A stretch of DNA of 64,000 nt, from positions 5,640,501 to 5,704,500 of the forward strand of contig NZ_CP135529.1 of the NCBI RefSeq assembly GCF_032401055.1, given 5' to 3'. The position numbers were made by a program, and so were the translations under genes. The notes beneath the pieces were generated by a model. That model did no database searches. It was not told where the DNA came from and saw only the letters and a list, made by a program, of their open reading frames with translations. This document shows, in pieces, positions 34,357 to 63,305 of the stretch. The number at the start of each line of letters is the position of its first letter. The first letter of the stretch is position 1. Source of the stretch: Tardiphaga sp. 709. Its GTDB lineage: Bacteria; Pseudomonadota; Alphaproteobacteria; Rhizobiales; Xanthobacteraceae.

Positions 34357-34761
34357 TCACTTTGAAGCCGCATGCTTGAAAACCCAAAGTCGGCTGATCA
34401 AAAAGCTGATAGGCGGCCAGGCTGCTGCGATTCCGAGGGATGTCATCGTCGGGTCCGCCAGATGATGCTCTAATATGAATGTGCTGAGAGAGCCCAACAC
34501 GATGAAAATTGTCGCCTGCATGGCGCCAAAGCGCGGCAAGTGAACTGCATGGCGGCCGGTCATACGGAATGTGAACTGATGGTGTCCAACGTATGAAACA
34601 ACGAACCCGCAAAGGATTGCCAGAATTGATGCAATCGAGGGCCGAACGCCCAGAGCTTTGACGAGCCCGATCGAGATCAGCAGGTATGTCAGTGTAGAAA
34701 GACCGCCGATTACCACGAACCGCAACAAGGTCTGCACGGTATCGTTGTTCCTGATATTCAT
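34357..34761 (-). CDS. GtrA-like flippase family protein
   Basis: A 134-residue membrane protein with four hydrophobic helices (about 13-33, 40-60, 78-98, 108-125) and the GtrA hallmarks FVVIGGLSTLTYLL and VSYVGHHQFTFRM. GtrA-family proteins are thought to flip undecaprenyl-phosphate-linked sugars to the periplasmic face. It follows the large GT-C-like gene by about 15 bases, giving two of the three parts of a Gtr glucosylation-type set. Confidence 0.86.
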   Translation of the reverse strand: MNIRNNDTVQTLLRFVVIGGLSTLTYLLISIGLVKALGVRPSIASILAILCGFVVSYVGHHQFTFRMTGRHAVHLPRFGAMQATIFIVLGSLSTFILEHHLADPTMTSLGIAAAWPPISFLISRLWVFKHAASK

Positions 34762-34776
34762 GACCGGCCGGATCCG

Positions 34777-40229: not shown

Positions 40230-41159
40230 CTAATCCGGCAGTGACGGCTGCGCGAGATATGCCAGCAGCTTTATCTCGCGGCGTCCGCGGGTGACGGTGT
40301 CAAGCACGAGGCCCGACGAAAATGAGAGCACGCCGACGATCATCAGGCCGGTCGAGAGCACGGCGGTGGGCAGCCGAGGCACCAAACCTGTTTCCAGATA
40401 AGTGACGGTGACGGGAATCGCGAGGCCGATGGAGACGATGCCGAAGAAGAGGCCAATTGTGCCGAAGAAGCGCAGCGGCTTTTCCGAACGATAGAGCTTC
40501 ATGATGGTGCCGAGGATCCGGAAACCGTCCTTCCACGTGCTGAGCTTGCTGATGGAGCCCTGCGGTCGCGCGAAATACGGCGTTTCGATTTCAGCGACCG
40601 GCAGTGCGAGCTGCAGCGCATGAACGCTCAGTTCAGTCTCGATCTCGAAACCATCGGACAGCACCGGGAAGGATTTGACAAAGCGTCTCGAGAATACGCG
40701 ATAGCCTGACAGCACATCCTTGAAGTTCTGACCGAACGTCATTGACAGAAAGCCGGTGAGCAGTGAGTTACCGGTACGGTGGCCAAGGCGATAGGCAGCA
40801 ACCTGCTGCTCAATGCGGCGGCCCACCACCATGTCGAGGCGATCGTTTAACAGCGCTTCGATCATGGCTGGCGCGGATGTCGCGTCGTAGGTCGCATCGC
40901 CATCGACGAGAACATAGACATCGGCATCGACGTCACCGAACATGCGGCGGACGACATGACCCTTGCCTTGACGGGGCTCGCTGCGAACAACCGCGCCCGC
41001 CTGCGACGCGACTTCACGTGTGCGATCTGTCGAGTTGTTGTCGTAGACATAGATCGCGGCGGCGGGCAGTGCCTTCCGGAAATCGTTCACGACTGTTGCG
41101 ACTGCGATCTCTTCATTGAAGCAGGGGATCAGGATAGCGACGCGGTGCGGTGCGGTCAT
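40230..41159 (-). CDS. Family 2 glycosyltransferase, polyprenyl-phosphate type
   Basis: A 309-residue protein. Residues 1-215 are a GT-A domain (VAILIPCFNEE, YDNNSTDRT, and the metal-binding VDGDATYD). Residues about 230-300 hold two hydrophobic helices, as in DPM1/GtrB-like enzymes that load a sugar onto a polyprenyl phosphate at the membrane. It is a candidate third member for the GtrA and GT-C genes at 34.4-36.6 kb, or for the polysaccharide locus that begins here. Donor sugar unknown. Confidence 0.83.
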   Translation of the reverse strand: MTAPHRVAILIPCFNEEIAVATVVNDFRKALPAAAIYVYDNNSTDRTREVASQAGAVVRSEPRQGKGHVVRRMFGDVDADVYVLVDGDATYDATSAPAMIEALLNDRLDMVVGRRIEQQVAAYRLGHRTGNSLLTGFLSMTFGQNFKDVLSGYRVFSRRFVKSFPVLSDGFEIETELSVHALQLALPVAEIETPYFARPQGSISKLSTWKDGFRILGTIMKLYRSEKPLRFFGTIGLFFGIVSIGLAIPVTVTYLETGLVPRLPTAVLSTGLMIVGVLSFSSGLVLDTVTRGRREIKLLAYLAQPSLPD

Positions 41160-46530: not shown

Positions 46531-47316
46531 TCAGACAATTTCCTTGTCGAACGTATAGGCCTCGATCATATCGTCGACCGGGCCGATCGCTCTAACTTGT
46601 CCTTTGTCCATCCAGATCGCCTTGTTGCACCAGCGTTTGCAAATCTCCGGGCTGTGGGATGCCAGCACAAGCACGTTGGCGCTTTCGACAAAGGATTCGA
46701 TACGGTGTTGAGCCTTTGCAAGAAATCCCGCATCGCCGGCGACGATCCATTCGTCCATCAGCAGGATTTCGGGCGCGAAGCAGGTGGCAACGGCGAATGT
46801 CAGACGCGTCATCATGCCCGATGAGTAGGTCCTGACCGGAATATCCAGATAGTCGCCGAGTTCCGTAAACTCCACGATCTCGGCGATCCGCTCTTCAACC
46901 TGCTGAGCCGTCAGGCCGAGGATGAGTCCTCGTAACCTGATATTATCATAGCCGCTGACCTCGCCGTCGATTCCGAGGCTGATGTCAAACATCGGAGAGA
47001 TGCGTCCCTGGGTCCGTACGATGCCCGCAACAGGCTCATAGATGCCGGCCATCACACGCAGCAGAGTTGTCTTTCCTGCGCCGTTGGAACCAATTAGTGC
47101 CACGCGGTCGCCGGCCTCGATGTTGAGCGTCACATTCCGCAGCGCTTCGACCGAGATCCGCTGATTGGCGTCGCTGGCGAGCTGTCCGCCAGAGCCGCGA
47201 AACAGTAGGCTTTTTTTCAATGAGCGAGAACCGCCATGATAGATCGGAAATGAAACACTGACGTTGTCGAGCGCGAGCAACGTCTCATTTGCGGATGTGC
47301 TTCCGGCGATACGCAT
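46531..47316 (-). CDS. wzt: Polysaccharide ABC exporter ATP-binding protein
   Basis: A 261-residue ATPase of the Wzt/KpsT/RfbE type: Walker A IGSNGAGKTTLLRV, Walker B ILLMDEWIVAGDAGF and switch HSPEICKRW. It ends soon after the ATPase fold, so it lacks the C-terminal carbohydrate-binding domain seen in some Wzt proteins that read the glycan end. The tolerance for the exported chain may then be broader. It follows wzm by five bases. Confidence 0.92.
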   Translation of the reverse strand: MRIAGSTSANETLLALDNVSVSFPIYHGGSRSLKKSLLFRGSGGQLASDANQRISVEALRNVTLNIEAGDRVALIGSNGAGKTTLLRVMAGIYEPVAGIVRTQGRISPMFDISLGIDGEVSGYDNIRLRGLILGLTAQQVEERIAEIVEFTELGDYLDIPVRTYSSGMMTRLTFAVATCFAPEILLMDEWIVAGDAGFLAKAQHRIESFVESANVLVLASHSPEICKRWCNKAIWMDKGQVRAIGPVDDMIEAYTFDKEIV

Positions 47317-47321
47317 GACTG

Positions 47322-48200
47322 TCAGACCCAGTAGGAAATACGTGAACGGAAGCGTGTGAAGAACGCACCCGCAACAGTCAGATTGATCGCCGTGATCAGT
47401 AGAACGGCGACGTAGTTTTTCATGGATGGTGCGGTGCCAAGCAGCGGCGCGCGAACGATCTCGATGAGATGGAAAAACGGATTCAGGTCGGCAACGAAGG
47501 CCTTGTTCTTCAGTAGCTCCGGCTTCCAGAAAATCGGGGTGATGAAAAAGACAATCTGAACCATCGAATTGATGAGCTGCGGAATGTCACGGAAGCGCGC
47601 CGACAGCATTCCGATAAACATGGTGGCGAGCGCGCCGTTGAGCACGATGAAGAACAGTCCCGGGATCGCCAGCAACATCACGGGCCCGGGCCAGATCTGA
47701 AAGTACAGTAGCACGCCGAAGTAGATGACGAAGTTGTGAGCGAAGATGACGAACTTGCTCCAGGTCGATCGATAGACATAGACCGTGTAGGGCAGCCGGA
47801 TCTGCTTGATGTAGGACTCGGCGCCCGTGAACAGGGTGCCGCCCTCGGTCAGAAAGCTGGACAGGAACGTCCAGACCAGAAGTCCCACGCAGAGGAACGG
47901 AAGAAATTCGTCGATCGGCGATTTGAAGAGCTCGGCATAGACGACGCCGAGCGCGACCACCATGATGGCCATGCTGGCCGTCAGCCAGAACGGTCCCAAC
48001 AGCGATCGGCGATAGCGCTGGAGGATATCGTTCCACCCGAGCCGCACCCAAAGCCGCCACATCCCGAGTCCCGATACGATGTCTTCGGTCGCGGTCGACA
48101 GTGCGTTGTCGCCGCCGCTGTGGCTGACAACGGGGGCGTTTGAACTGCTATGTGCGTGCAGCGTTTGTGACATGTGTAGAGATACCCGATCTTTCGTCAT
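47322..48200 (-). CDS. wzm: Polysaccharide ABC exporter permease
   Basis: A 292-residue ABC-2 type permease with about six helices (near 62-85, 92-115, 140-165, 175-198, 205-225, 262-282) and the family-typical RYRRSLLGPFWLTASMAIMV at the first helix. It moves lipid-linked polysaccharide to the periplasm with Wzt. Its ATG overlaps the stop of the upstream GT4 gene (ATGA at 48197-48200). Confidence 0.92.
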   Translation of the reverse strand: MTKDRVSLHMSQTLHAHSSSNAPVVSHSGGDNALSTATEDIVSGLGMWRLWVRLGWNDILQRYRRSLLGPFWLTASMAIMVVALGVVYAELFKSPIDEFLPFLCVGLLVWTFLSSFLTEGGTLFTGAESYIKQIRLPYTVYVYRSTWSKFVIFAHNFVIYFGVLLYFQIWPGPVMLLAIPGLFFIVLNGALATMFIGMLSARFRDIPQLINSMVQIVFFITPIFWKPELLKNKAFVADLNPFFHLIEIVRAPLLGTAPSMKNYVAVLLITAINLTVAGAFFTRFRSRISYWV

Positions 48201-50873: not shown

Positions 50874-51955
50874 ATGTCGTCCCAATTTGAAACTGTGTAC
50901 AGGAACCGCAAGGTACTGGTCACCGGCCATACCGGATTCAAGGGGGCTGGCTGTCCAGCTGGCTGCATCTGCTCGGTGCCGATGTCTACGGCATGAGCCT
51001 CGAGCCGGACACAACTCCCAACCTGTTCAACGCGATAGGTCTTGGCGATCTGATGCATTCGGAGATCATCGATATCCGTAATGCTGCCGATGTCAGGCAG
51101 GCCGTCGAGGCCTGTGCACCGGAAATTGTTTTTCACCTCGCCGCGCAGCCGCTGGTCCGCAAGTCCTACAGCGACCCAATTGAAACATTTGCGACGAATG
51201 TCGTTGGCACTGCGGCTGTGCTCGATGCCTGCCGACAATGCGGCTCAGTGAAAGCGGTTGTCTGTGTGACAACCGATAAGGTCTATCTGAATAAGGAAGA
51301 AAATCATCCTTATGTCGAGGGCGACAGGCTGGGCGGGCTCGACCCCTACAGCGCCAGCAAGGCCTGCGCGGAGCTGGTCGCTTATGTGTACCAGCGCAAT
51401 TTTCATCGCGCTGGTGGCGTGCCTCTGATCGCGACAGCCCGTGGCGGCAATGTTGTCGGGGGTGGGGACTGGTGCGCGGACCGGATAATCCCGGACATAG
51501 TGCGCGCGCTGGCCGCGCGGCAACCGCTGAAGCTGCGCAATCCTGCCGCCGTCAGGCCCTGGCAGCATGTTCTCGAACTGTGCGAGGGCTATTTGGAGCT
51601 GGGCGCGCGACTGTTTGCCGATGAGCGCGATATTGCCGACGCCTGGAATATCGGCCCGATGGCTGAAAGCACACTGACCGTCAGCGAACTCGTCAAGCTG
51701 GCCTTGGCGTTATGGAAGCTGCCCGAGCATCCGGTGGAAGTGGAGCGCGCGGCGCTGCACGAGGCGCAATTGCTGCGCTTGAATATCGAGAAATCGCTCC
51801 AGCGCCTGAACTGGCGACCGCGTCTCGCGGTCAAAGACACGCTGACGTGGACCGTTGATTGGTACAGGGATTACTATGAAGCTCCTGCGCGCGCACGCGA
51901 TATGACATTCGCGCAAATCAAGTCGTTCCAGAACATGATGGCGCCGAACCGTTGA
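50874..51955 (+). pseudogene. rfbG: CDP-glucose 4,6-dehydratase, frameshifted as read
   Basis: An SDR converting CDP-glucose to CDP-4-keto-6-deoxyglucose. ATG 50874 reads KVLVTGHTGFKG and then leaves frame at the G5 run 50942-50946. One more G restores GGWLSSWLHLLGADVYGMSL and joins the long downstream frame with TTDKVY, the Tyr-x-x-x-Lys in DPYSASKACAEL, and TARGGNVVGGGDW. The restored length, about 360 residues, is normal. Without repair the cofactor loop is lost. It stands first in an overlapping operon with rfbF further down. A sequencing indel is the simplest reading. Confidence 0.88.
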
Positions 51956-52884
51956 CCCATTCCGGCGCAGTTCTGATAACCGGAGCGACCGGCTTCATCG
52001 GTCGCCACTTGGCCCGGCATCTTGCGGGGCTGGGCTATGCCGTCACCTCGCTGCAGCGCTCCGATACCCCCGTCGATGGTGTGAGCGCGACTATCGTAGT
52101 GCCGGAATTCGAGCCGTCGGCCATTGCGCATGCCTTGTCCGGCCAGTCCTTCGATCTCGTGTTCCATCTGGCTAGCTATGGCGTCAACCCTACCGAGCGC
52201 GACGCAGAGGCCATGTTTCGGGTCAATGTCGATGTGACGCGGAGTGTGGTGCAGCAGGCCAAATTCTGCGGGGCGAAGGCTGCGGTCATCAGCGGCAGCG
52301 GGGGCGAATACGACCTCGCGGGCGTCACCAGTCCGGTGACGGAGCAGCAGCCTCTCGAAACATTCAAGCTGTACGGGGCTTCCAAGGCCGCCGCGAGCCT
52401 CTGCGCGCTGGCCATGGCGCGAGATCTCGGTTTGCCCCTTGTCGTGGGGCGGCTGTTTGGCGTATTTGGCCCCGGAGAAGCGCCGCACCGGCTGCTGCCC
52501 AGTCTGGTGAATAGTCTACAGAACAATGAGCGCGTGCGGCTGTCGGCGGGCTTGCAGCGCCGGGATGCGCTATATGTCGACGATGCAGTTGCGGCCCTGA
52601 TCGAACTGGCGCTGTGCGTCAAACGAGAGCCGCAGGTCGTCGTCAATATCAGTTCGGGGGATGCGCAGACGGTGCGCGCGTTTGCCGAAATGGTCGCGGA
52701 CACATTGCAGGCGCCGCGATCCCTGCTTGGTTTCGGCGATATCGACACCAGGCCGGACGACGTTGCCTGTTTTGCAGGCGACCCGCAGCGCCTTTTTGAG
52801 CTTACGGGCTGGAAGCCCGCTCACACATTAGCGAGCGGGATACGTGCGGCAATCGACGGTATGACAATTCGAGCGAGAACATGA
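51952..52884 (+). CDS. NAD-dependent epimerase/dehydratase (sugar reductase/epimerase)
   Basis: A 310-residue extended SDR: cofactor motif TGATGFIGRHLARHL, ISGSGGEYDLAG, and Tyr-x-x-x-Lys in LYGASKAAASL. It begins at a TTG that overlaps the rfbG stop (TTGA), so it is coupled to it. Placed between rfbG and rfbF, it probably reduces or epimerises the CDP-4-keto-6-deoxyhexose to the final CDP-sugar, like paratose/abequose-type synthases, though no RfbH (3-deoxygenation) is present, so a 6-deoxyhexose is more likely than a 3,6-dideoxyhexose. Confidence 0.84.
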   Translation: MTHSGAVLITGATGFIGRHLARHLAGLGYAVTSLQRSDTPVDGVSATIVVPEFEPSAIAHALSGQSFDLVFHLASYGVNPTERDAEAMFRVNVDVTRSVVQQAKFCGAKAAVISGSGGEYDLAGVTSPVTEQQPLETFKLYGASKAAASLCALAMARDLGLPLVVGRLFGVFGPGEAPHRLLPSLVNSLQNNERVRLSAGLQRRDALYVDDAVAALIELALCVKREPQVVVNISSGDAQTVRAFAEMVADTLQAPRSLLGFGDIDTRPDDVACFAGDPQRLFELTGWKPAHTLASGIRAAIDGMTIRART

Positions 52885-53879
52885 ACGGTACTGCTGAGCA
52901 AATAAAACGGCGGCTGATTTCTATCTCGGTACCCGTTCTCAACGAAGAGGGAAATATCGACCAGTTGATCCTGCGTCTGCAGGGCGTTGCCCGCGATAAT
53001 CCCGCATATGATTTCGAGTTCGTCGTCACCGACAATGCCAGCACCGATGAAACATTTGCGAAGCTCGCCGAACATGCGGTAGCAGAAGCTCGGCTTCGCG
53101 TGTTCAAGTTCTCGCGTAATTTCGGCTTCCAGCGCTCGATCCTGTTCAATTTGCTGAATACCCGAGGCGATGCCGCCGTTCAGGTCGATGCCGACCTGCA
53201 GGATCCGCCCGAACTGATCACGCAGTTTCTCGAGAAGTGGGAGCGCGGTTTCAAGGTCGTTTATGGCATCCGCCGTAAGCGCAAGGAAAATCTCGCGTTG
53301 CTGTGGGCGCGTAAGATACACTACCGGCTGCTGCGAATGCTGAGCGAAGTCGAAGTCCCTGTCGATGCGGGCGATTTCCGCCTGATCGATCGTTCGGTCA
53401 TCGAGCACCTACGCAGCTTCGAGGATCGGTCGCCATATCTTCGCGGAATCATCGCGTCGATCGGCTATGCGCAGGCCGGCATCGTCTATGACCGTGCAGA
53501 GCGAACCGTCGGCAAGAGCAAGTTCAATTTCTTCAAGCTGCTGACGCTATCGATCGACGGCGTGTGCAGCCAGTCGACGAAGCCGCTGCAATACATCACG
53601 ATGTTCGGCTTCGCGGTCTGCGGCATTTCAATCCTGCTGATGGTCGCGTATCTGATTGACTATATCTTCACCAGCGGAACCGATCCGCGCGGCTTTACGA
53701 CGCTAGTTCTCCTGACCTTGGCTTCCATCGGGCTGAACGCAGCCTTCGTCGGGTTGCTCGGTGAATATATCGGCCGAATATTCAGCACCGTACGCGGCGG
53801 TCCCGTTGCAATTGTCTCCGACCGCATCGATTCCTTTGCTATCGAGCATGAAGAGAACATGGAGATTCGATCCAAATGA
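52881..53879 (+). CDS. GtrB-like polyprenyl-phosphate glycosyltransferase
   Basis: A 332-residue GT2 enzyme. The GT-A part has ISVPVLNEEGNIDQLI, VTDNASTDET, the metal site in VQVDADLQDPPE and the acceptor-side VGKSKFNFFKL motif. Two hydrophobic helices (about 240-265, 277-300) close the protein, as in GtrB/PglH-like DPM enzymes that load Und-P. It overlaps both neighbours by four bases. Likely donor is the CDP-sugar made by the adjacent genes; that is inference. Confidence 0.87.
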   Translation: MNGTAEQIKRRLISISVPVLNEEGNIDQLILRLQGVARDNPAYDFEFVVTDNASTDETFAKLAEHAVAEARLRVFKFSRNFGFQRSILFNLLNTRGDAAVQVDADLQDPPELITQFLEKWERGFKVVYGIRRKRKENLALLWARKIHYRLLRMLSEVEVPVDAGDFRLIDRSVIEHLRSFEDRSPYLRGIIASIGYAQAGIVYDRAERTVGKSKFNFFKLLTLSIDGVCSQSTKPLQYITMFGFAVCGISILLMVAYLIDYIFTSGTDPRGFTTLVLLTLASIGLNAAFVGLLGEYIGRIFSTVRGGPVAIVSDRIDSFAIEHEENMEIRSK

Positions 53880-54649
53880 AGGCCATTATTCTCGCCGGCG
53901 GATTGGGCACCAGACTCTCGGAGGAGACCGATCTCCGGCCAAAGCCGTTGGTCGAGATCGGCGGCCGCCCCATTCTGTGGCACATCATGAAAATGTATGA
54001 TGCCGCCGGTATCCGGGATTTCATCATCTGCGGCGGATACAAGGCCTCGATGATCAAGCGCTACTTCGCGAACTATCGCCTCGAAGAAAACGACATCGAA
54101 GTCGACACGTTGACGGGAAGCATTCGATACCTGTCGACGTCGGTGCAAGAACACTGGAAGGTTACCGTCATCGATACCGGTCTTGAAACAATGACCGGTG
54201 GGCGCCTTCAGAAAGTTCGTCATCTAGTGAAAGATGAAGCCTTCTGCGTGACCTATGGCGACGGCGTTTCGGACATCGACATCGCAGCGCTGATCGACGC
54301 GCACAAGAAGCACGGCAAGCTGGCTACGATCACTGCCGTACCGAGCCCGGGTCGCTTCGGCATTCTCGACATCAATGCAGGTGGCGGCGTTGATGAATTT
54401 CTGGAGAAGCCGCATGCGGAGATGGGCTGGATCAACGGAGGCTTCTTCGTTCTGCAGCCGGAAGCGCTCAATTATATCGAGGATGAGACCACGATCTGGG
54501 AGCGCAAGCCGCTCGAGAAGCTGGCCAAGGACGGACAACTGGTCGCGTACCGACATTCCGGGTTCTGGAAACCCATGGATACGCTGCGCGACAAGCGGGA
54601 ACTCGAGCAGCTTTGGTCCGAGAATCCTCCGTGGAAGAAATGGTCGTAG
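53876..54649 (+). CDS. rfbF: Glucose-1-phosphate cytidylyltransferase
   Basis: A 257-residue nucleotidyltransferase making CDP-glucose from CTP and glucose-1-phosphate. It has LAGGLGTRLSEETDLRPKPL with the activated-phosphate motif, VEIGGRPILWHIMKMY typical of RfbF, TYGDGVSDIDI and GGFFVLQPEAL. With rfbG this fixes the pathway as CDP-6-deoxyhexose synthesis. Length is exactly as in the family. Confidence 0.95.
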   Translation: MKAIILAGGLGTRLSEETDLRPKPLVEIGGRPILWHIMKMYDAAGIRDFIICGGYKASMIKRYFANYRLEENDIEVDTLTGSIRYLSTSVQEHWKVTVIDTGLETMTGGRLQKVRHLVKDEAFCVTYGDGVSDIDIAALIDAHKKHGKLATITAVPSPGRFGILDINAGGGVDEFLEKPHAEMGWINGGFFVLQPEALNYIEDETTIWERKPLEKLAKDGQLVAYRHSGFWKPMDTLRDKRELEQLWSENPPWKKWS

Positions 54650-54658
54650 GATAACGCC

Positions 54659-55345
54659 ATGAGCGCCCCAGAATTTGATCCCTATAGCAACGACTACAAG
54701 TCCCTCGTCAACGAATCGTTGGCGTTTTCGGGGCTGGACGTCGATTACTTTACGCGGGTTAAGGCAGAGTATCTGAAGGACATTCTGCTCAAGACCTTCG
54801 GCAAGACAGAGGTCGACGTGCTAGACCTCGGCTGCGGGATCGGAAATTATCACGCACTGCTCCGGCCTTCGCTCCGGTCGCTTGCGGGCATCGACGTCTC
54901 GAGCGAAAGCATCAAGATCGCCACGACCAGAAATGCCGATGTGAACTACAAGGCGTTCGATGGCTCGGATATTCCGTTCGCGGAGAACTCGTTCGACGTC
55001 GTGTTCGCCGTCTGCGTGTTTCATCATATTCCCGTCGCGGCGCGGGCGGCGCTGATCGAAGACGCCAGGCGCGTGCTGCGCGATGGCGGCATCTTCGTCA
55101 TCTTCGAGCACAATCCCATTAACCCGCTGACGATGCGCGTGGTCAATCGTTGCGTGTTTGACAAGGACGCTATTCTTCTGAAGAGCGCTGAAGCCGAAGG
55201 GTTGCTCGCGAATGGCGGCTTCAAGGATGTCCGGTCGCGCTTCATTCTGACCATCCCGTCATTCAACAAGGTAACGCGCATGCTGGATCAGTCGTTCGGA
55301 AGGCTCCCGCTGGGTGCTCAATATTTCTCGATGGGCCACGTTTGA
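54659..55345 (+). CDS. Class I SAM-dependent methyltransferase
   Basis: A 228-residue enzyme with SAM motif I VLDLGCGIGNYH, acidic loop GIDVSSESI, and post-motif FDVVFAVCVFHHI. It lies 9 bases after rfbF and overlaps the GtrA gene, so it probably methylates the sugar or the glycan of this operon. The target atom is unknown. Confidence 0.86.
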   Translation: MSAPEFDPYSNDYKSLVNESLAFSGLDVDYFTRVKAEYLKDILLKTFGKTEVDVLDLGCGIGNYHALLRPSLRSLAGIDVSSESIKIATTRNADVNYKAFDGSDIPFAENSFDVVFAVCVFHHIPVAARAALIEDARRVLRDGGIFVIFEHNPINPLTMRVVNRCVFDKDAILLKSAEAEGLLANGGFKDVRSRFILTIPSFNKVTRMLDQSFGRLPLGAQYFSMGHV

Positions 55346-55767
55346 TGCTAATGCCGAGTGCGGCTGATCGTCGCCGTCTTGGTCTGTTGCTCGTGCGGTT
55401 TTCAGTTTCCGGTCTGTTCAACGGCATGGTCTATGCTGCCGGATTTCTCGCAGCACTACGGTTTCTAAATTTGCCGAGTTCTGCTGCGTCGTGCGTCGGC
55501 TACCTCGCGGGCCTTGCGGCGGGCTTTCTAATGCACAGGAATTTCACGTTTCTGGTTGGCGGTTCCTGGAAACGCCAGATGGTCAAATACGGCGTCGCCC
55601 AGGCCGGGGTGATGTCGGTTGTATCCGGGGTCTCCTACATTGCCGCCAATGTCATGCAATGGCCGACCTATGCGGTCATCGCCTCGGGGATCGTCGTGGC
55701 GCCGGTCCTGACGTTCACGCTGTTGAATTACTGGGTCTTTCCACCTAGAACCGACGCGGCTTTCTAA
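55342..55767 (+). CDS. GtrA-like flippase family protein
   Basis: A 141-residue membrane protein with four helices and the hallmarks FSVSGLFNGMVYAAGFLAAL and GFLMHRNFTFLV. It would flip the Und-P sugar made by the GtrB-like enzyme of the same operon. Coupled by overlap (ATGA) to the methyltransferase gene. A second GtrA-like gene lies at 34357-34761. Confidence 0.87.
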   Translation: MMLMPSAADRRRLGLLLVRFSVSGLFNGMVYAAGFLAALRFLNLPSSAASCVGYLAGLAAGFLMHRNFTFLVGGSWKRQMVKYGVAQAGVMSVVSGVSYIAANVMQWPTYAVIASGIVVAPVLTFTLLNYWVFPPRTDAAF

Positions 55768-55777
55768 GGACGATGAA

Positions 55778-56398
55778 GTGGCTGATCTGCGTGACGTTCT
55801 TGCGATTCCTCAAATCTATCAAGGCTTTCAGAGGGCCGGTGGCTTCTTTGGCGCGCGCCTGACCGCGATGCAGAGGTATCTGCCCATCGCGGAGGATACC
55901 CGGATCGTCGACGTGGGTTGCGGTCCCGGCTACTTGCGGGATTTTCTGCCGAGATCCTCTCAGTATTTCGGCTTCGACACCGACGAGCGCTACATCGCGC
56001 GCGCGCGAAAAACGCAGCAGCCGCAGGATCGCTATCGTTGCCAGATCTTCGACGAGGCTGCAGCGGCCGAAGTTACTCCTGTCGATATCATCATGATGAA
56101 CGGGTTGTTGCACCACCTGACCGACGACGAAGCACGCAATCTTCTGGCGGCGTCCGTTTCCGCGCTGAGCCCGGGCGGCCGAATTTTCACGCTGGACGGA
56201 TGCTATATTCCCGGACAGACGCTGTTCCGGAAGACGCTGCTAGACTGGGATCGCGGCCAGTATGTCCGCACTGCTGAGCGCTACAAGGCGCTCTTCCCGG
56301 GCGCCGCCGTGTCACTATCAGCGTATGTCGATGAAGACCTGTCGCGGATCAGCTACACATTTCTGAGTATCGTTGCGACTAAACACGGAACGAGTTGA
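55778..56398 (+). CDS. Class I SAM-dependent methyltransferase
   Basis: A 206-residue enzyme. The GTG at 55778 follows AAGGA and reads MADLRDVLAIPQIYQGFQ. Motif I is IVDVGCGPGYLRDF, followed by FGFDTDERYI and PVDIIMMNGLLHHL. It sits between GtrA and the GT-C-like gene, so methylation of the transferred sugar is likely. It differs clearly from the methyltransferase at 54659. Confidence 0.85.
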   Translation: MADLRDVLAIPQIYQGFQRAGGFFGARLTAMQRYLPIAEDTRIVDVGCGPGYLRDFLPRSSQYFGFDTDERYIARARKTQQPQDRYRCQIFDEAAAAEVTPVDIIMMNGLLHHLTDDEARNLLAASVSALSPGGRIFTLDGCYIPGQTLFRKTLLDWDRGQYVRTAERYKALFPGAAVSLSAYVDEDLSRISYTFLSIVATKHGTS

Positions 56399-56495
56399 GT
56401 TCGGCGACGCCAGTGGCGTGATGTCGGCGGTTTTTCGACCGAGATTCTCGCGCTGAACGACCGCCGAAACAGGACCTGAAGACGACAAGGTGACT

Positions 56496-58568
56496 ATGAC
56501 GCGGACCTCCTTCTTGCCATCCTTGCTTCCGTCCTCTGGCGGGTCTCGCGTCATCCTTGCTCTGTTCGCCATTCTTCCGATTGTCGTGGTTCTCGCGAAC
56601 TATGAGGTGCTGGGCAATCGCGTCGCGGATATCGACACTTGGTTCTATTACGGCCACTTCACGTCGCTGGGGCAGTACCGCAATGTCGATGCCTTCATCG
56701 GCAACAACTACTACCAGACCCGGTTGCCATACCTCATTCCCGGCTACATCATCTTCTCGCTGTTCTCCGAGACATGGGCCAAGTTCATTCTGGCCTACCT
56801 GAGCTATGCGGTGACGACCGCCAGTTTCTATTATCTCGTCGCTGCGAATTTCGACCGCCAGAAGGCGATGCTGGTCACTGCGCTGTTCGCGACGGATGTT
56901 TTCTTCGTTCGCGGCTATGGTTGGAACTATGTCGATATCGGCGTTCTCGCTTATTTCACCATCGGTATGGCCGCGCTGACGTGGGCGGGCAAGGAGCAGG
57001 CGGGACGTTTCGTCAAACTGGCGCTGGCGGGATTTGCCTTTGCCTGCATGTTGTTCATTCACTTGGGCTCGACCATCCTCGCTGCGCCTGCATTGGCCTA
57101 TGTCTGGTATCGCATCCCGGAGGCACGCACACGCCGGGGCATGAACTGGACCATTGCCGGGATCGTGGTCGGCGCCGTCATTGCGCAGTTGCTGTTCGGC
57201 ATTCTGAACAAGGCGATCTGGGGCAGCCGCTTCTTCTTCCTCTTTGAGCAACTGGCGGTCGGCAAGATCGAGTTGAAGACGAATCCGAGCTGGGAATCCC
57301 CGTTTGCGCTGCTGCGGAATGGTCCCTGGGTCACCGTCCACTTTGGCATCTGGCTCGCATCCGTAGCGGCGCTGATCCTCAACCTGCTCGGCCGGGTGCG
57401 CTTCGAACGTCCAGCCATCGTCTGGCTGTCGTCTGTCGTCGTCCTCTATGCGGCACTCTTTGCGGTCGATGCGGCAGGCTTTTCGAACTTCACCATGCGT
57501 GAAGGTTTGCGCATGACCTTCTTCCTAACAGCGTCGTATTTCTGTCTGCCGTTTCTCATCGGGGGGACGCTACCGCGTTGGGCTACCAGTTCCGTGGTTG
57601 CGATCTGCGTCCTCGCGCTAGCAGCCAATCTGCGCCTGCATCTCGATGAGCATCTCGTCGATGGACGCATTCTGGCGGCGGTGATCGCGCTGGCCCTCAG
57701 TCTGGGTTTCTATGTGCGGCGGGCGGCGATCATGGCAGCCGCGCTGGTTGTCGTCATTGTCGCGCGTTTCTTCGTTGTGTGGCCGTTCGCACAGAACGAG
57801 ACGATCTATCAAGCCCATGCGCTCATTCAGTTGCTGGCCGGAAATGACCTTCCGCGGTTCATTACGTCGGACAAGGATCCGCTCTATGGGTCTATTCTTG
57901 CCTGTGTGATCAGCACCTTCACCGAGCGGGCATGGTGGATGCACGGACAGAATTTTCCGGAGCTTCCGCCGCAGGCGATGTGGTACAAGAGCAAGGTGTT
58001 TTTGCTTAGCTCGACCATCAAGGATCCCAATGAGGCCGCGCGATTGCTTGGGCCGAATGTGGACAAGATCGAGCCGATCGCGTCGTTCCGTCTGGGCGCA
58101 TCGAGCAGTACATTTTATGTGTCGCAGTTCGAGGTAACGAACCGGATCGGCTTTCCCGCCGTTTTCGCAAAGTTTCAGAAACAGAGTTCTGCGATCCCGG
58201 CATCGATGCTTTCTTCGACGATCGAGGGAGATACGATCCGCGGTGAAGGCCGCCTGGCGGACGGCAAATCGAAGACGGGCTATCTCACCTTCGGGCCCTA
58301 TGCGTCACTGTCGCGCGGAAAATACAGGTTTGTCTTCAAATACGGTCCGAGCTCCGGTCAGCAGGAATGGGACGTCGTAGTGCCGGATGCCGGCAAGGGC
58401 ATGCGTACATTGGCGAAAGGCACGTTTGCCCCAACCGACAAGGTCGGGCAGGAGGTGACGGTCGACGTCGATCTTCCCAGTGACGTGATCAATCTCGAGG
58501 CCCGGACGCACTTTGCGGGTAACGGTACGTTGGGCGTTTCCGCTATCGGTATCATTCCGCTAGACTGA
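56496..58568 (+). CDS. Large membrane protein, GT-C glycosyltransferase-like
   Basis: A 690-residue polytopic protein with about 11-12 helices in residues 18-430 and a C-terminal beta-rich soluble domain (about 540-690). The first periplasmic loop has NRVADIDTWFYYGHFTSL, with the acidic pair expected for a GT-C catalytic site, and NNYYQTRLPYLIPGYI matches the layout of the protein at 34777-36582 (YYKAARLPWIW). ATG 56496 has AAGG at 5-base spacing; GTG 56490 is the alternative. It would transfer the flipped sugar to a periplasmic acceptor (inference). Confidence 0.72.
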   Translation: MTRTSFLPSLLPSSGGSRVILALFAILPIVVVLANYEVLGNRVADIDTWFYYGHFTSLGQYRNVDAFIGNNYYQTRLPYLIPGYIIFSLFSETWAKFILAYLSYAVTTASFYYLVAANFDRQKAMLVTALFATDVFFVRGYGWNYVDIGVLAYFTIGMAALTWAGKEQAGRFVKLALAGFAFACMLFIHLGSTILAAPALAYVWYRIPEARTRRGMNWTIAGIVVGAVIAQLLFGILNKAIWGSRFFFLFEQLAVGKIELKTNPSWESPFALLRNGPWVTVHFGIWLASVAALILNLLGRVRFERPAIVWLSSVVVLYAALFAVDAAGFSNFTMREGLRMTFFLTASYFCLPFLIGGTLPRWATSSVVAICVLALAANLRLHLDEHLVDGRILAAVIALALSLGFYVRRAAIMAAALVVVIVARFFVVWPFAQNETIYQAHALIQLLAGNDLPRFITSDKDPLYGSILACVISTFTERAWWMHGQNFPELPPQAMWYKSKVFLLSSTIKDPNEAARLLGPNVDKIEPIASFRLGASSSTFYVSQFEVTNRIGFPAVFAKFQKQSSAIPASMLSSTIEGDTIRGEGRLADGKSKTGYLTFGPYASLSRGKYRFVFKYGPSSGQQEWDVVVPDAGKGMRTLAKGTFAPTDKVGQEVTVDVDLPSDVINLEARTHFAGNGTLGVSAIGIIPLD

Positions 58569-58645: not shown

Positions 58646-59641
58646 TTGAGCAAGACAGCTTTGGTGACCGGTGCGTCCGGACAGGACGGTAGCTATCTGA
58701 TCGAGCTGTTGCTTGAGCGTGGCTATCACGTGCACGCGCAGTCGCGCGATCCGGCCGGGGCTGTCGAAACCAGACCGGCGGTCACCTGGCACGCTGGCGA
58801 CATCGCTGACAGCGAATTTCTGAAGCGATTGATCGGCGACACTTCGCCCGATGAGATCTACAATCTTGCAGCGATCACGCGCCCCGGATTGTCGTGGCAG
58901 TACCCGGAGCAGACGGCAGTTCTGAATGCTCTGGTGCCGCAGCGCATTTGCGACCTGCTGGCTCAGGCAGGTTCTTCATGCCGGCTGTTTCAAGCCTCGA
59001 CGTCTGAAATGTTCGATGGCGAACATGGGCAGGCCCAGAGCGAAACCACGCCGTTCAATCCGCAGTCGCCCTATGGAATATCGAAGACATTCGCGCATCG
59101 GACCGTCGGCGCATTTCGCAAACAGCGAGGTTTGCACGCGTCATGCGGCATTTTGTTCAATCACGAAAGCCCGCGTCGCGGGCTCAGTTTCGTGTCGCAG
59201 AAAATCGCCCATGCGGCGGCGGCTATCTCGTTGGGAATGCGGGAGACTCGTGAGCTAGATGAACGCGAGCGGCCGATCGTTGCCGAAGGCAAGCTGCATC
59301 TCGGCAATATCCATGTTCGCCGGGATTTCGGTTTCGCTGGCGATGTCGTGGTGGCGATGCATCTGATCGTTACCAGCAACCAGCCGGACGACTACATCAT
59401 CGGCACTGGCGAGAGTCGCTCGATCGCGCAATTCTGCGAGCAGGCGTTTCGCCATGTCGGCCTTAACTGGGAGGACCACGTGGTCGTCGATCAGGCGCTG
59501 GAGCGCAACGTCGACACACCCTTTACCCAGGCGGACGCGTCAAAGCTGACTGCGCGGCTTGGTTGGAAACCGAAAGTCAGTTTCGATGCGCTGGTCGACA
59601 TGATGGTGAATGAGCGAATCCGCATCCTGCAGGGCGGCTAG
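58646..59641 (+). CDS. GDP-mannose 4,6-dehydratase-like protein
   Basis: A 331-residue SDR of the Gmd family, shorter and divergent from gmd at 49502. It has TGASGQDGSYLIELLLERGY, ITRPGLSWQ, STSEMFDG and Tyr-x-x-x-Lys in SPYGISKTFAHR, plus the Gmd-type NHESPRRGLSFVSQKIAHA. TTG 58646 is taken as the start. It could act on another GDP-sugar or be a Rmd-like reductase. Its TAG overlaps the restored stop of the convergent gene. Confidence 0.86.
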   Translation: MSKTALVTGASGQDGSYLIELLLERGYHVHAQSRDPAGAVETRPAVTWHAGDIADSEFLKRLIGDTSPDEIYNLAAITRPGLSWQYPEQTAVLNALVPQRICDLLAQAGSSCRLFQASTSEMFDGEHGQAQSETTPFNPQSPYGISKTFAHRTVGAFRKQRGLHASCGILFNHESPRRGLSFVSQKIAHAAAAISLGMRETRELDERERPIVAEGKLHLGNIHVRRDFGFAGDVVVAMHLIVTSNQPDDYIIGTGESRSIAQFCEQAFRHVGLNWEDHVVVDQALERNVDTPFTQADASKLTARLGWKPKVSFDALVDMMVNERIRILQGG

Positions 59642-59723: not shown

Positions 59724-62700
59724 CTAGCCATGTGGCCGCATTGGTTTGCATTTTTTCCTCGCGTCGTGATCGCCCAGCAATTGCGCGATGCCGCGGTCGA
59801 TGGCGTCCTGCTCAAATCCATCGAACCTCACGACTGCGGTCCCCAACTCGTCGAAGATGGCCGCGGGCGTGACAGCGACCGGAGTGCCGCTGGCCAGCGC
59901 AATGCGAACGGCGCCGCTGGCGGATTCCGGGCTCTCATCATAGGGGAGGATCAACAGGTCGCATTCTGCGAGCTGGGCAAGGCTGTTGTTGTCGGTCTGG
60001 AAATCCGTCTTCCACTCGATCAGTTCAAACACGCCAAGCGTTTTTGCCAGCGCCTTGCAGCGCGCGATTTCGTCTGTGGATGTCGCCGATTCATACTCGG
60101 CGTTGACGAGCCGCAGCCGAATGTTCGGCCATTTCTGCCTGAGGCTGACCAAAGCGTGTATGAGCTTCGACAGCCCCTTGCCGGGCAGGAAGAAGCCATA
60201 AGAGCCGATGACCGGTGCGCTGCTTCCGATCAGTTGGCGAGCTTCGGAAGCATTGAAACGCTGCGGTGCGCCATGCGGGAAGTATGTGACGTTGGCGATC
60301 AGGCCCCAATCCTTGAGGCGATTGAGGTCGGCGATTTGGTGAACGAGAACGCGCGTCGAACGGCGAAGCGCCGCGATGATCGAGTTTCGTTCGTCTTCAG
60401 GGAGCTTTGCGAGGGTCGGGACGGAGTGCAGCACGACGACCGTAACCCGCGTGGCGAGGCGTGTGTCCCGGAGCAGCTTTGCGAGGTCCTGCCATGATAT
60501 CAGGCCGGGCTGGTGCTGAATGACAAGAACCTCAGGATCACTGACTGACACGCTGCGCGCCAGACGATCCATGACGCCGCTCTCTTCGAGCATGGTCCAT
60601 GCGGGAACGATCTGCGGTCTGGTGGCGCCGTCTTTGACCCGTGTCCGGTCGTCGCTCAGGATCGTGAGCTTGATCGCGTCCGGAGCGGTCTTCTCAATCA
60701 TTCTGTCGAGCAGGAAGCGCGAATACTCGGCCACGCCGCATTTTACGTCCCAGGTCGATATCCAGCCGACGCGCAGTATTTTGGCGCGTGTGGAGATGAC
60801 GTCCACGGCGCCGTTCACCAGACGTTCGACCCAGGGTGCCTGCGCCAGCGAGCGTTCGATATCGGCGGCCGCGCGCCGGGCCTTCTGCCTTGACGCGCTG
60901 TTGCTGTCGAGACGCTCCCGGTGAATTTCGCGGAAGGCGGCTGTGAGGTCGTCGAGGTCCGGCTCGACCCACAAGGATGAATTGTCGGCGACGTGGCTTG
61001 CCGAGCGTGCGAAATGGAATGCCACGAAGCGGCAATAGTCCGATGACGTGAAGTCCGCGTGGCCGCCATAGCCGGTGACGATCAACGGCATGCCTGCCGC
61101 CATGGCTTCCGCGGCCGGAAGGTTGAAGCCTTCGCCGCGGGTCGGCAGCACCATGGCGTCGGCGTCGCGAAACAGCGCGAGCATCTGATCGTCGTCGAAG
61201 TCCTGTTCGATCACGGTGATATCCGCGATCTCCGGATCTTCACGCCTCAGTCTGGCGACCTGTTCGGCGATGTCGCTATGAGGATTGGGGAAGGTCTTGA
61301 TGATCAGCCGCACCGTGTCTTCCCGGCGAAAAGCTTTCGCATAGGCGGCGATGAGGACATCTGCGCCCTTTCGGGGAAAGCAGGACGACACGTGCAAGAA
61401 GGTGAACGGCCGTTCGGCAAGCGTTGCGGATCGCTCGAGGCCGATCTTGCGATAGCCGCTCAGGTCGGGCGCATAGCCGACATCGAGGATCGGACGCCAG
61501 ACGCCGGAGTCGATCAGCGACTTCGTGACGAATGTGGTTGGAGCCAGGATGGCCTCGAAGTCCTCATTGAGCGCCTCCACGATGGCCGGCGGTAGCAGGG
61601 ACTCTTCCCAGAACAGCATCGCAAACTTGTGCCCGGGCACGTCCGGCACGTAGATGGGATAATGCTGGCTGATGACGATCTGCGGTTCTGTCGGTGGCTC
61701 GTCGCGTGACACCAGCGATGCGATGATGTTGGCCTGCGCCGCCGATTCATCGCCGAAGTCCGGGACGGGGCCGTTCTCCCAGGGTATGACGCGCTGGTGG
61801 CCCGGACGTTCAGCTTCCATCGTCGTCGCCATGGACCGATTCACGGCGGCGAGGCTGTAGGCGCCTTGTACATGGCCGACGAATGTTGTGTGCAGATTGC
61901 GGAATATCCCACGCCTCGTATCGGGGTCGAGCGGTAGTCTCGCGCCGGCCGCTGCCAGTGCGCGCAGCAGCGCCGGGACATGACGGTTGAGCTCATATCG
62001 ACTGATGAAGGCGAGCTGGCGTGCGACGACCCGGTCCCGAAAGTCCTGATCTGTTGCGAGTTGCATCAAAGCGTCCGCCACCGCATTGGCAGAACGTTCG
62101 GTCAAAGAGATGGCTGCATCCGCGATCGTATAGGCGATCGCGGAACAGGGCCATGCAATGACCGGCAGGCTGTGCGCCATGGCCTCGATCAGCGGAACGC
62201 CGAAGCCCTCGTGGTAGCTCAGGGATACATAGGCGTGCGCCGTATTGAACCAGCGATGCAGTTCCTCATCGGAGACGGCGCCTGTCAGGATAACGTGCTC
62301 ATCCAGATGATGTTGCGCGGCGCGGCGGCGAATTTCGGCGGGGTAGGCGTCCTCTATCGAGTCGAAGCGTCCGACGATGACAAGGCGCGATGGCCGAGCA
62401 TATCGTCGTGCGAATTCCGCGAAGGCGTCGACGAGATCGGCCTGTCCCTTTGACTTCGTCACCCGCCCGACGAACAGCACCGTAAACGGATCGGCGTTCG
62501 TCACGTTCGGTTTGGCAGGAGGCTGCCCGGCGTCACGCGGCCGCAACGTGTCGAGATCGAACAGAAGCGAACTGACCGCGGGGCTCTCGTAGCCGCAACG
62601 CTGTAGCTCCAGCATGTTGAACTCGCTGTCCGCAAGCGCAGCCAGCATATGTGGACGCATATCGACCAGTTGCCGTCGGCCTAGTTCGGAATAGGGGATC

Positions 62701-63305
62701 ATCCATGGCGCATCGCCGAGAAACTCAGGCGGCGTCACGTTGTGATACATCAGGATCTTGCGGGCATCGAGCGACAGGATGAAGTCGAGAATGCCATGAC
62801 CCATCGAGTGATGGACAATCAGAACGTAGTCGTCGTGATTGGGCAGGTCGTCCGCCAGAAAAAGCACGTCGGACAATCTCGGGTCGCGGTGCTCGACGAA
62901 GATTTCGCTCTCATAGCCGAGACCGCGCAGAAGACGCTGAACCAGAAAAAGCGAGTTCGTCACCGCGTCGCCTACGGCGGATCCGGAATGAAACTGATGC
63001 ACCGTGCGGATCTGCGTGCGCCCGCCGACATACGGGACGGCTGCCTGCAATGCGCCCGCGGATTTGACCCGCGGATTGACCGGCACCGGCTGCTTCATCA
63101 GCCCGGCGCGAACCAGCGCCTTGACCGTCAGGAAACGTGCAAGACGCACGCCGCGCTCTGCTGTAGTGCCGCGTCCTGATGCCTTGTTAAGTCGCTGGAC
63201 AAGGCCGAGCGGAATGCCGGCGCTGATCAGCGCCGCGCCGTAGCGTCGTCGGGCAAGGTTCTGAAAGATGGGTGGGACGCGTCCGAACAACTGCAGATCT
63301 CTCAA
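59724..63305 (-). CDS. Giant glycosyltransferase with three GT-B sections, C-terminal frame break
   Basis: A 1193-residue protein as read. Section 1 (about 105-470) has VLFVGRVTKSKGQADLVDAF and EGFGVPLIEAMAHSLPVI. Section 2 (about 530-850) has HVSSCFPRKGADVLIAAY and GEGFNLPAAEAMAAGMPLIV. Section 3 (about 865-1190) has GWISTWDVKCGVAEYSRFLL and SYGFFLPGKGLSKLIHAL, with a weaker donor motif (ESASGAVRIALASGTPVAV). Sections 1 and 2 look active; section 3 may be degenerate. The end ARKKCKPMRPHG departs from family expectation: one more A in the A6 run (59751-59756 as T on +) would extend the protein by about 29 residues to a stop at 59638. It probably builds the cell-surface glycan. Confidence 0.87.
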   Translation of the reverse strand: MRDLQLFGRVPPIFQNLARRRYGAALISAGIPLGLVQRLNKASGRGTTAERGVRLARFLTVKALVRAGLMKQPVPVNPRVKSAGALQAAVPYVGGRTQIRTVHQFHSGSAVGDAVTNSLFLVQRLLRGLGYESEIFVEHRDPRLSDVLFLADDLPNHDDYVLIVHHSMGHGILDFILSLDARKILMYHNVTPPEFLGDAPWMIPYSELGRRQLVDMRPHMLAALADSEFNMLELQRCGYESPAVSSLLFDLDTLRPRDAGQPPAKPNVTNADPFTVLFVGRVTKSKGQADLVDAFAEFARRYARPSRLVIVGRFDSIEDAYPAEIRRRAAQHHLDEHVILTGAVSDEELHRWFNTAHAYVSLSYHEGFGVPLIEAMAHSLPVIAWPCSAIAYTIADAAISLTERSANAVADALMQLATDQDFRDRVVARQLAFISRYELNRHVPALLRALAAAGARLPLDPDTRRGIFRNLHTTFVGHVQGAYSLAAVNRSMATTMEAERPGHQRVIPWENGPVPDFGDESAAQANIIASLVSRDEPPTEPQIVISQHYPIYVPDVPGHKFAMLFWEESLLPPAIVEALNEDFEAILAPTTFVTKSLIDSGVWRPILDVGYAPDLSGYRKIGLERSATLAERPFTFLHVSSCFPRKGADVLIAAYAKAFRREDTVRLIIKTFPNPHSDIAEQVARLRREDPEIADITVIEQDFDDDQMLALFRDADAMVLPTRGEGFNLPAAEAMAAGMPLIVTGYGGHADFTSSDYCRFVAFHFARSASHVADNSSLWVEPDLDDLTAAFREIHRERLDSNSASRQKARRAAADIERSLAQAPWVERLVNGAVDVISTRAKILRVGWISTWDVKCGVAEYSRFLLDRMIEKTAPDAIKLTILSDDRTRVKDGATRPQIVPAWTMLEESGVMDRLARSVSVSDPEVLVIQHQPGLISWQDLAKLLRDTRLATRVTVVVLHSVPTLAKLPEDERNSIIAALRRSTRVLVHQIADLNRLKDWGLIANVTYFPHGAPQRFNASEARQLIGSSAPVIGSYGFFLPGKGLSKLIHALVSLRQKWPNIRLRLVNAEYESATSTDEIARCKALAKTLGVFELIEWKTDFQTDNNSLAQLAECDLLILPYDESPESASGAVRIALASGTPVAVTPAAIFDELGTAVVRFDGFEQDAIDRGIAQLLGDHDARKKCKPMRPHG

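Follow-up and report, generated by a model that had tools for sequence, protein, structure and literature searches.

In this study, we analysed a window of 64,000 nucleotides from the soil bacterium Tardiphaga sp. 709 (contig NZ_CP135529.1, positions 5,640,501 to 5,704,500), which carries an eight-gene operon on its plus strand at positions 50874-58568. The genes follow one another in the order rfbG, red (encoding a short-chain dehydrogenase/reductase, SDR), gtrB, rfbF, mt1, gtrA, mt2 and gtc, and we consider it likely that they form a periplasmic three-component glycosylation module fed by its own cytidine diphosphate (CDP)-sugar.

Organization of the operon

The original prediction, made from the DNA sequence without database searches, had placed eight plus-strand genes with these kinds of product in this interval. 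Family matches confirmed the genes, the interval and the product kinds. The predicted overlapping or closely spaced arrangement was found as 4-bp overlaps in four neighbouring pairs (rfbG/red, red/gtrB, gtrB/rfbF and mt1/gtrA), with remaining intergenic gaps of 9, 10 and 91 bp. The features are listed below.

50874..50996, plus strand: N-terminal piece of rfbG with the start and the NAD-binding motif GHTGFKG, in a frame differing from that of the main piece
50993..51955, plus strand: main piece of rfbG, CDP-glucose 4,6-dehydratase (TIGR02622, 377 bits, model positions 35-351)
51952..52884, plus strand: red, extended SDR that probably reduces a CDP-4-keto-6-deoxyhexose and may also act as epimerase (PF01370)
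52881..53879, plus strand: gtrB, polyprenyl-phosphate sugar transferase of glycosyltransferase family 2 (GT2), Asn52 occupying the base-contact position (PF00535)
53876..54649, plus strand: rfbF, glucose-1-phosphate cytidylyltransferase (TIGR02623, 379.6 bits)
54659..55345, plus strand: mt1, class I S-adenosylmethionine (SAM) methyltransferase (PF08241)
55342..55767, plus strand: gtrA, putative polyprenyl-phosphate-sugar flippase (PF04138, 47.1 bits)
55778..56398, plus strand: mt2, class I SAM methyltransferase (PF08242/PF13649)
56490..58568, plus strand: gtc, multi-spanning membrane protein of 692 aa, putative glycosyltransferase of the C type (GT-C; hydrophobic segments, relationship to locus L081)
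58646..59641, plus strand: GMD-like SDR, possible ninth gene (TIGR01472, 265 bits, under the cut-off)

Cut-offs were 300.25 bits for TIGR02623, 278.45 for TIGR02622, 26.1 each for PF04138 and PMT_2, and 415 for TIGR01472; RfbF and the main piece of RfbG both exceed their curated values. GtrB is homologous over nearly the full chain to the GtrB structure 5EKP and to ArnC (PDB relatives 5EKP/5EKE with E ~1e-58 and ArnC 9BHC with 1.5e-32). The PDB relatives of the reductase include the GDP-6-deoxy-lyxo-4-hexulose reductase 2PK3, and its homologues adjoin gtrB/rfbF/rfbG in other loci too. Both methyltransferases have general PDB relatives, those of Mt1 including the D-glucose O-methyltransferase 6UV6 (5.8e-9), and a 54% identical homologue of Mt1 occupies the equivalent position in locus L054. 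The GMD-like gene starts 77 bp after gtc, and its place is kept in locus L011. Rfam at gathering scores gave no match within 40000-64000, and promoter and terminator scans yielded fewer sites than were obtained in shuffled sequences.

Linkage of gtrB with rfbF and rfbG

Homologues of GtrB were ranked in 385 genomes of the class, and about 9 kb per side were fetched where the contig allowed. The linkage set comprised 47 of the first 48 non-self matches, G898 at a contig start being left out; it stops at G1048, and the lower-ranked G024 (L237, met through its rfbG) is linked as well. Within 9 kb, rfbF/rfbG were present at 10 of the 11 closest homologues (38-50% identical) versus 1 of the 36 next-ranked ones, namely L119 (Fisher p 2e-8, kinship ignored). 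The unlinked one among the first 11 is L128, in which the contig ends 346 bp after gtrB. Among the first 11 stretches, 4 were cut within 8 kb of gtrB, and among the next 36 there were 10 such cases.

For the reverse sample, 33 rfbG matches were taken from 83 genomes of the phylum; 31 of these loci were fetched, and the window and G710 already came with a GtrB. A GtrB was found nearby in 3 of the 31 fetched loci, or 5 of 33 with the window and G710, so CDP-sugars mostly go elsewhere. Taken together, the two directions indicate that a GtrB of this kind is accompanied by CDP-sugar genes, and not the converse.

The reverse sample bears on an explanation that we regard as quite improbable, in which two separate functions happen to be neighbours: the CDP-6-deoxyhexose would be made for the backbone via cytoplasmic glycosyltransferases, and GtrB, GtrA and the GT-C protein would decorate with glucose or another uridine diphosphate (UDP)-sugar. 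Such a division would agree with the lack of a GtrB near 28 of the 31 rfbG loci (some cut by contig ends), with the several other glycosyltransferases in the window and with the second, Asp-type GtrB of two linked loci. However, gtrB lies between red and rfbF with 4-bp overlaps, an adjacency that recurs in other families, and the linked loci each have an Asn52 GtrB of one clade, whereas UDP-type GtrBs and two others of this genome keep Asp. The originally predicted union of Gtr-like logic with a dedicated CDP-sugar supply is well supported by this cross-family linkage and by the GtrB clade tied to rfbF/rfbG.

Related modules in other bacteria

To detect related modules, the reductase was used as query at the level of the taxonomic order, and GtrB at that of the class. 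In other Alphaproteobacteria, gtrB was found beside rfbF/rfbG, often together with gtrA, reductase, methyltransferase and GT-C-like genes, and these recurrences include rhizobial and roseobacter plasmids. The synteny check that had been suggested for the gene order returned all eight genes in L011, the same order minus mt2 in L054 and partial orders elsewhere. L054, from another family of the same order, reads rfbG-SDR-gtrB-rfbF-mt1-gtrA followed by a protein with 11 transmembrane segments, while L082 has rfbG-SDR-gtrB-rfbF and L057 SDR-gtrB-rfbF. In the latter two, an LPG-synthase-TM protein (PF03706) and a 753-763-aa membrane protein stand in place of gtrA/GT-C. The PF03706 gene follows rfbF at L057 6147-7145 and L082 10606-11655 and possibly encodes an alternative flippase. 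L081 reads rfbG-gtrB-rfbF-GT-C, and its GT-C belongs to the GT-C family of the window.

According to their annotation, public plasmids of Labrenzia, Leisingera and Palleronia have consecutive genes for GtrA, a hypothetical protein, RfbF, RfbG, a DegT-type aminotransferase, a methyltransferase, an SDR and a GtrB-like GT2. The hypothetical protein of the Labrenzia module is PMT_2-like, and a variant module is located on two Sinorhizobium plasmids. Unlike the window, sister modules carry RfbH. Among 26 tabulated linked loci, some of which end at contig ends, gtrA was present in 17, a GT-C-like gene in 19 and both in 15. Here, GT-C-like denotes a member of either GT-C family or a frame of at least 430 aa with at least 8 hydrophobic segments, a loose definition that may take in other membrane proteins. 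The three-component GtrA/GtrB/GT-C set with its own CDP-6-deoxyhexose supply is not unique to this genome. Asp-type second GtrBs were noted at L080 13111-14064 and L085 15695-16648, and two donors may serve side by side there.

Asn52 in GtrB

The GtrB of the window has Asn52 (TDNAS) at the second Asp of the GT2 motif DDGS, and in the phmmer alignment this residue stands opposite Asp in both 5EKP and ArnC. By position in its sequence, Asp39 of SpsA is presumably the second Asp of the same motif. In SpsA, Asp39 coordinates N-3 of uracil, as described in the available part of the report (PMC3849446). Asp would accept the N3-H of uracil, and in the case of cytosine, Asn could pair with both N3 and the amino group.

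For a gene-by-gene count, GtrB-like proteins above 100 bits were taken and duplicates removed, linked genes being those within 9 kb of rfbF/rfbG; L032 has a GtrB-like fragment of 86 bits, which is under the 100-bit limit and was left out. Asn was present at position 52 in 32 of the 34 linked GtrB genes versus 4 of the 57 unlinked ones, and every linked locus (32/32) has an Asn GtrB. The Asn GtrBs of L044, L047 and L048 were first available in 3.9-kb stretches, and their flanks show rfbF/rfbG/rfbH 4-5 kb away; before these flanks were included, the counts were 29 of 31 for linked and 7 of 60 for other GtrBs. All nine GtrBs reached via rfbF/rfbG carry Asn as well (L033, L034, L036, L168, L189, L194, L231, L237 and L239). 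The Asp group includes YfdH and ArnC of E. coli, two further GtrBs from this genome and the GtrBs of 15/15 viral-contig loci, in the available stretches of which rfbF/rfbG were not seen. Unlinked Asn GtrBs are those of L108, L117, L128 and L141. Three of these genomes have RfbG elsewhere; in the L128 genome (89% complete), with gtrB at a contig end, RfbG was not found. RfbG elsewhere was also detected in 8 of the 31 genomes with an Asp case, and two of these eight (G978 and G997) have another GtrB, with Asn, near that RfbG.

In a tree of 80 GtrBs, all Asn members are on one side of one branch, whose support of 83 is not starred; 28 rows form a starred core. The Asp/Asn state changes once, and a tree of 63 rows agrees. 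Judged from these trees, the Asn52 pattern is one historical event, kept by selection or descent. With one change only, a test for independent origins has no power, and the single change makes Asn52 a candidate for a CDP-specificity switch and no more.

It is possible, if somewhat doubtful, that Asn is a marker of the clade and has no role in the choice of the base, being linked for example to the sugar or to the membrane partners. The one change on the tree and the Asn of GT2s with unknown donor would fit this. Against it, clade members that are only ~31-39% identical to the window GtrB keep Asn despite very different partner genes, and the position contacts the base in SpsA (available part of PMC3849446). 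On the broader proposal of a base switch our judgement is evenly divided: a proteobacterial GtrB clade would have switched from uracil to cytosine by one Asp-to-Asn change, which would have made CDP-6-deoxy- and CDP-3,6-dideoxyhexoses available for lipid-linked decoration in the periplasm. The Tardiphaga operon would then be one of many modules among which the flippases (of the GtrA or LPG-synthase-TM type), the GT-C enzymes and the methyltransferases are interchangeable.

Among GT2s other than GtrB near rfbF/rfbG, Asn is frequent (e.g., L055, L172, L175, L195, L196, L223, L225, L230 and L247), and Asp or another residue is found in the second GT2 of L055 and of L172 and in L058, L070, L220, L227 and L233; because the residues are mixed, no rule is claimed there. 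The window itself encodes an AglJ-like GT2 with a DNNS motif at 40233-41159 on the minus strand (TIGR04182, below cut-off), and L034 has a protein with nearly the same start 6-8 kb from rfbF/rfbG.

Frame break in rfbG and conservation of the operon

The frame from the start at 50874 reads MSSQFETVYRNRKVLVTGHTGFKG..., and its 40 codons include the NAD-binding motif before the stop at 50996. The remainder of rfbG is located in another frame than its first 24 codons; this second frame matches TIGR02622 positions 35-351 and has its first start codon at 50993. An RfbG readable as a single frame with the NAD-binding motif is absent from the window and present in L011, where the equivalent region lies inside one open frame of 404 codons. 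A programmed frameshift was considered and set aside, as this second Tardiphaga has the region in one frame. The break is located at a single-base run within the conserved region for NAD binding. Such runs are common places for sequencing errors, and the break may be genuine or a sequencing error. Since the main piece is the only match above the CDP-glucose 4,6-dehydratase cut-off in the genome and is frame-broken, the operon cannot be called complete, as it originally had been, as the sequence stands.

L011, from the Tardiphaga metagenome-assembled genome BWSM_99, has all eight genes in the same order with 62-89% identity and an intact rfbG; genome G244, which holds the same contig, is classed as the same genus. 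Because it recurs there, the eight-gene order is not due to chance. The ratio of nonsynonymous to synonymous divergence (dN/dS) from L011 could be computed for six operon genes and was ~0.07-0.15, these estimates being rough at dS values of 1.5-1.9. Both the break and the comparison bear on a decaying relic, in which the broken frame of the genome's sole CDP-glucose 4,6-dehydratase has turned the pathway off and the rest is heading for loss. We consider this rather unlikely: the nine other genes compared with L011 are all open, the divergence is (roughly) constrained, and the break is at a type of site prone to sequencing errors.

The 692-aa protein is rare, with matches in 4 of 296 sampled genomes of the family, two of them of the genus (its own and G244), and rfbG was detected at E <= 1e-60 in 7 of the 18 genomes of the genus, its own included. 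The operon looks like a strain-variable surface-glycan locus. It is adjoined by a gene for a 1193-aa protein with three GT4-type stretches at 59727-63305 on the minus strand, which is kept in L011.

The putative GT-C transferase

The last gene had been predicted to encode a GT-C-like transferase of 690 residues. Its product has 692 aa and directly matches neither a Pfam nor an NCBIfam model, and a GT-C relationship, which we regard as likely, is supported by way of intermediates. A crude scan gave ~10-12 hydrophobic segments, and D49, Y53, G55 and R78 of a motif in the first loop are kept in seven aligned family members. AlphaFold2 models built with 2 and 3 sequences reached a mean pLDDT (predicted local distance difference test) of 38.7 and 40.7, too poor for a judgement of the fold; strands are drawn in the C-terminal part at low confidence. 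The homologue in L081, which is 20% identical to the window protein (E 1e-5), scores above the PMT_2 cut-off (29.0 vs 26.1 bits), and PMT_2 is a member of the GT-C clan. The family connects stepwise to L081 and also to L014 and L079, both of which are under the PMT_2 cut-off. Viral contigs scanned with the GT-C alignment and plasmids searched with the 692-aa protein by tblastn contained no relative. Identity of this family with the roseobacter GT-C family is not claimed, as the profile comparison was weak (probability 34 and 59).

At 34360-36582 on the minus strand, a gtrA gene adjoins a gene for a 601-aa paralogue of the gtc product that is closest to the GT-C of L081. No GtrB was found in the window beside this pair, which may draw on the lipid-linked sugar of the operon.

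Proposed pathway and acceptor

From family membership, RfbF would make CDP-glucose and RfbG would convert it to CDP-4-keto-6-deoxyglucose, which the SDR probably reduces to a CDP-6-deoxyhexose. One or both methyltransferases may methylate the sugar before or after transfer. GtrB would move the sugar from CDP to undecaprenyl phosphate, as suggested by the gene linkage and by Asn in place of Asp at position 52, which would fit cytosine; GtrA would flip the lipid-linked sugar, and the 692-aa GT-C-like protein would transfer it to a surface glycan in the periplasm. The rfbF/rfbG linkage and Asn52 speak against UDP-glucose, the donor of classical Gtr serotype-conversion sets. No RfbH-like match was found within the window, the genome as a whole not having been searched for RfbH, and a 6-deoxyhexose is therefore expected rather than a 3,6-dideoxyhexose, with a stereochemistry set by the SDR.

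Genes of a Wzm/Wzt-kind ATP-binding cassette (ABC) glycan exporter are located at 46531-48200 (NCBIfam, below cut-off), and manC, gmd and several glycosyltransferase genes adjoin the operon. These neighbours make a polysaccharide exported by the Wzm/Wzt-like ABC transporter the probable acceptor. In systems of Klebsiella and Citrobacter, an ABC-exported polysaccharide is the acceptor according to the available part of PMC11127046. About 2-9 kb past the end of the window (L015 2237-8601), a second GtrB/GtrA set is present together with a weak DegT match and an SDR; it has no rfbF/rfbG match, and the base position of its GtrB is occupied by Asp.

Several observations weigh against a CDP-fed module. 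rfbG is frame-broken in this assembly, and a genuine break would mean an inactive pathway in this strain; likewise, few rfbG loci of the phylum have a GtrB nearby. The likely GT-C fold of the 692-aa protein is supported by homologues from other loci and not by the protein itself. Asp GtrBs occur near rfbF/rfbG as second copies in L080 (1.4 kb) and L085 (8.5 kb), each of which also has a nearer Asn GtrB, and another Asp GtrB (G937, L136) is located ~10 kb from an rfbG. The single change on the tree means that linkage and residue are not independent observations. Furthermore, Asn is found at the motif of the AglJ-like GT2 of the window, which has no known CDP link, and GT2 rhamnosyltransferases with DNGS are known.

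Comparison with known systems

Gtr serotype-conversion sets, known from Shigella and Salmonella phages and as yfdGHI in E. coli K-12, consist of three genes and are not known to include a sugar-nucleotide supply. Like the operon, they combine GtrA, GtrB and a large membrane transferase, and their GtrBs are 31-37% identical to that of the window among the matches listed (20 phage records). The K-12 set yfdG-yfdH-yfdI has no genes for sugar-nucleotide supply, whereas rfbF, rfbG, the reductase and two methyltransferases are joined into the operon. Gtr sets have Asp at position 52 (YfdH and 15/15 viral-contig loci), in contrast to Asn52 of the operon. The ArnC/ArnT system of lipid A modification resembles the operon in having a GtrB-like undecaprenyl-phosphate transferase with adjoining sugar-nucleotide genes, but ArnC has Asp at position 52. 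The donor of that system is annotated as UDP-L-Ara4FN, and its acceptor is lipid A.

Further parallels are offered by the pentofuranose systems of Citrobacter youngae O1/O2, in which, as is proposed for the operon, loading enzyme, flippase and GT-C together add a sugar in the periplasm to an ABC-exported polysaccharide, and which differ in their phosphoribosyl pyrophosphate (PRPP)-derived donor and in the loading enzyme (PMC11127046, available part). The Gram-positive CsbB/GtcA/YfhO systems combine, as is likewise proposed for the operon, a GT-A polyprenyl-phosphate transferase, a GtrA flippase and a GT-C, many of the GT-Cs being PMT_2, and glucose, galactose and N-acetylglucosamine are among the sugars tabulated (PMC8035078, available part). 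The term CDP is absent from the main text of both reports.

The original prediction did not know the combination as a described system. No description of CDP-fed GtrA/GtrB sets was found in a literature search whose coverage excluded most subscription journals. Modules of this kind are present, as annotated, on public plasmids. If the proposed reading is correct, a single residue could serve to guess which nucleotide a GtrB uses, unassigned gtrA/gtrB sets could be sorted by donor, and testable predictions would follow for the surface sugars of rhizobia and roseobacters, methylated and dideoxy sugars included. Decoration of glycans via polyprenyl phosphate would then extend beyond the UDP-sugars and PRPP-derived pentoses of the systems described in PMC11127046 and PMC8035078.

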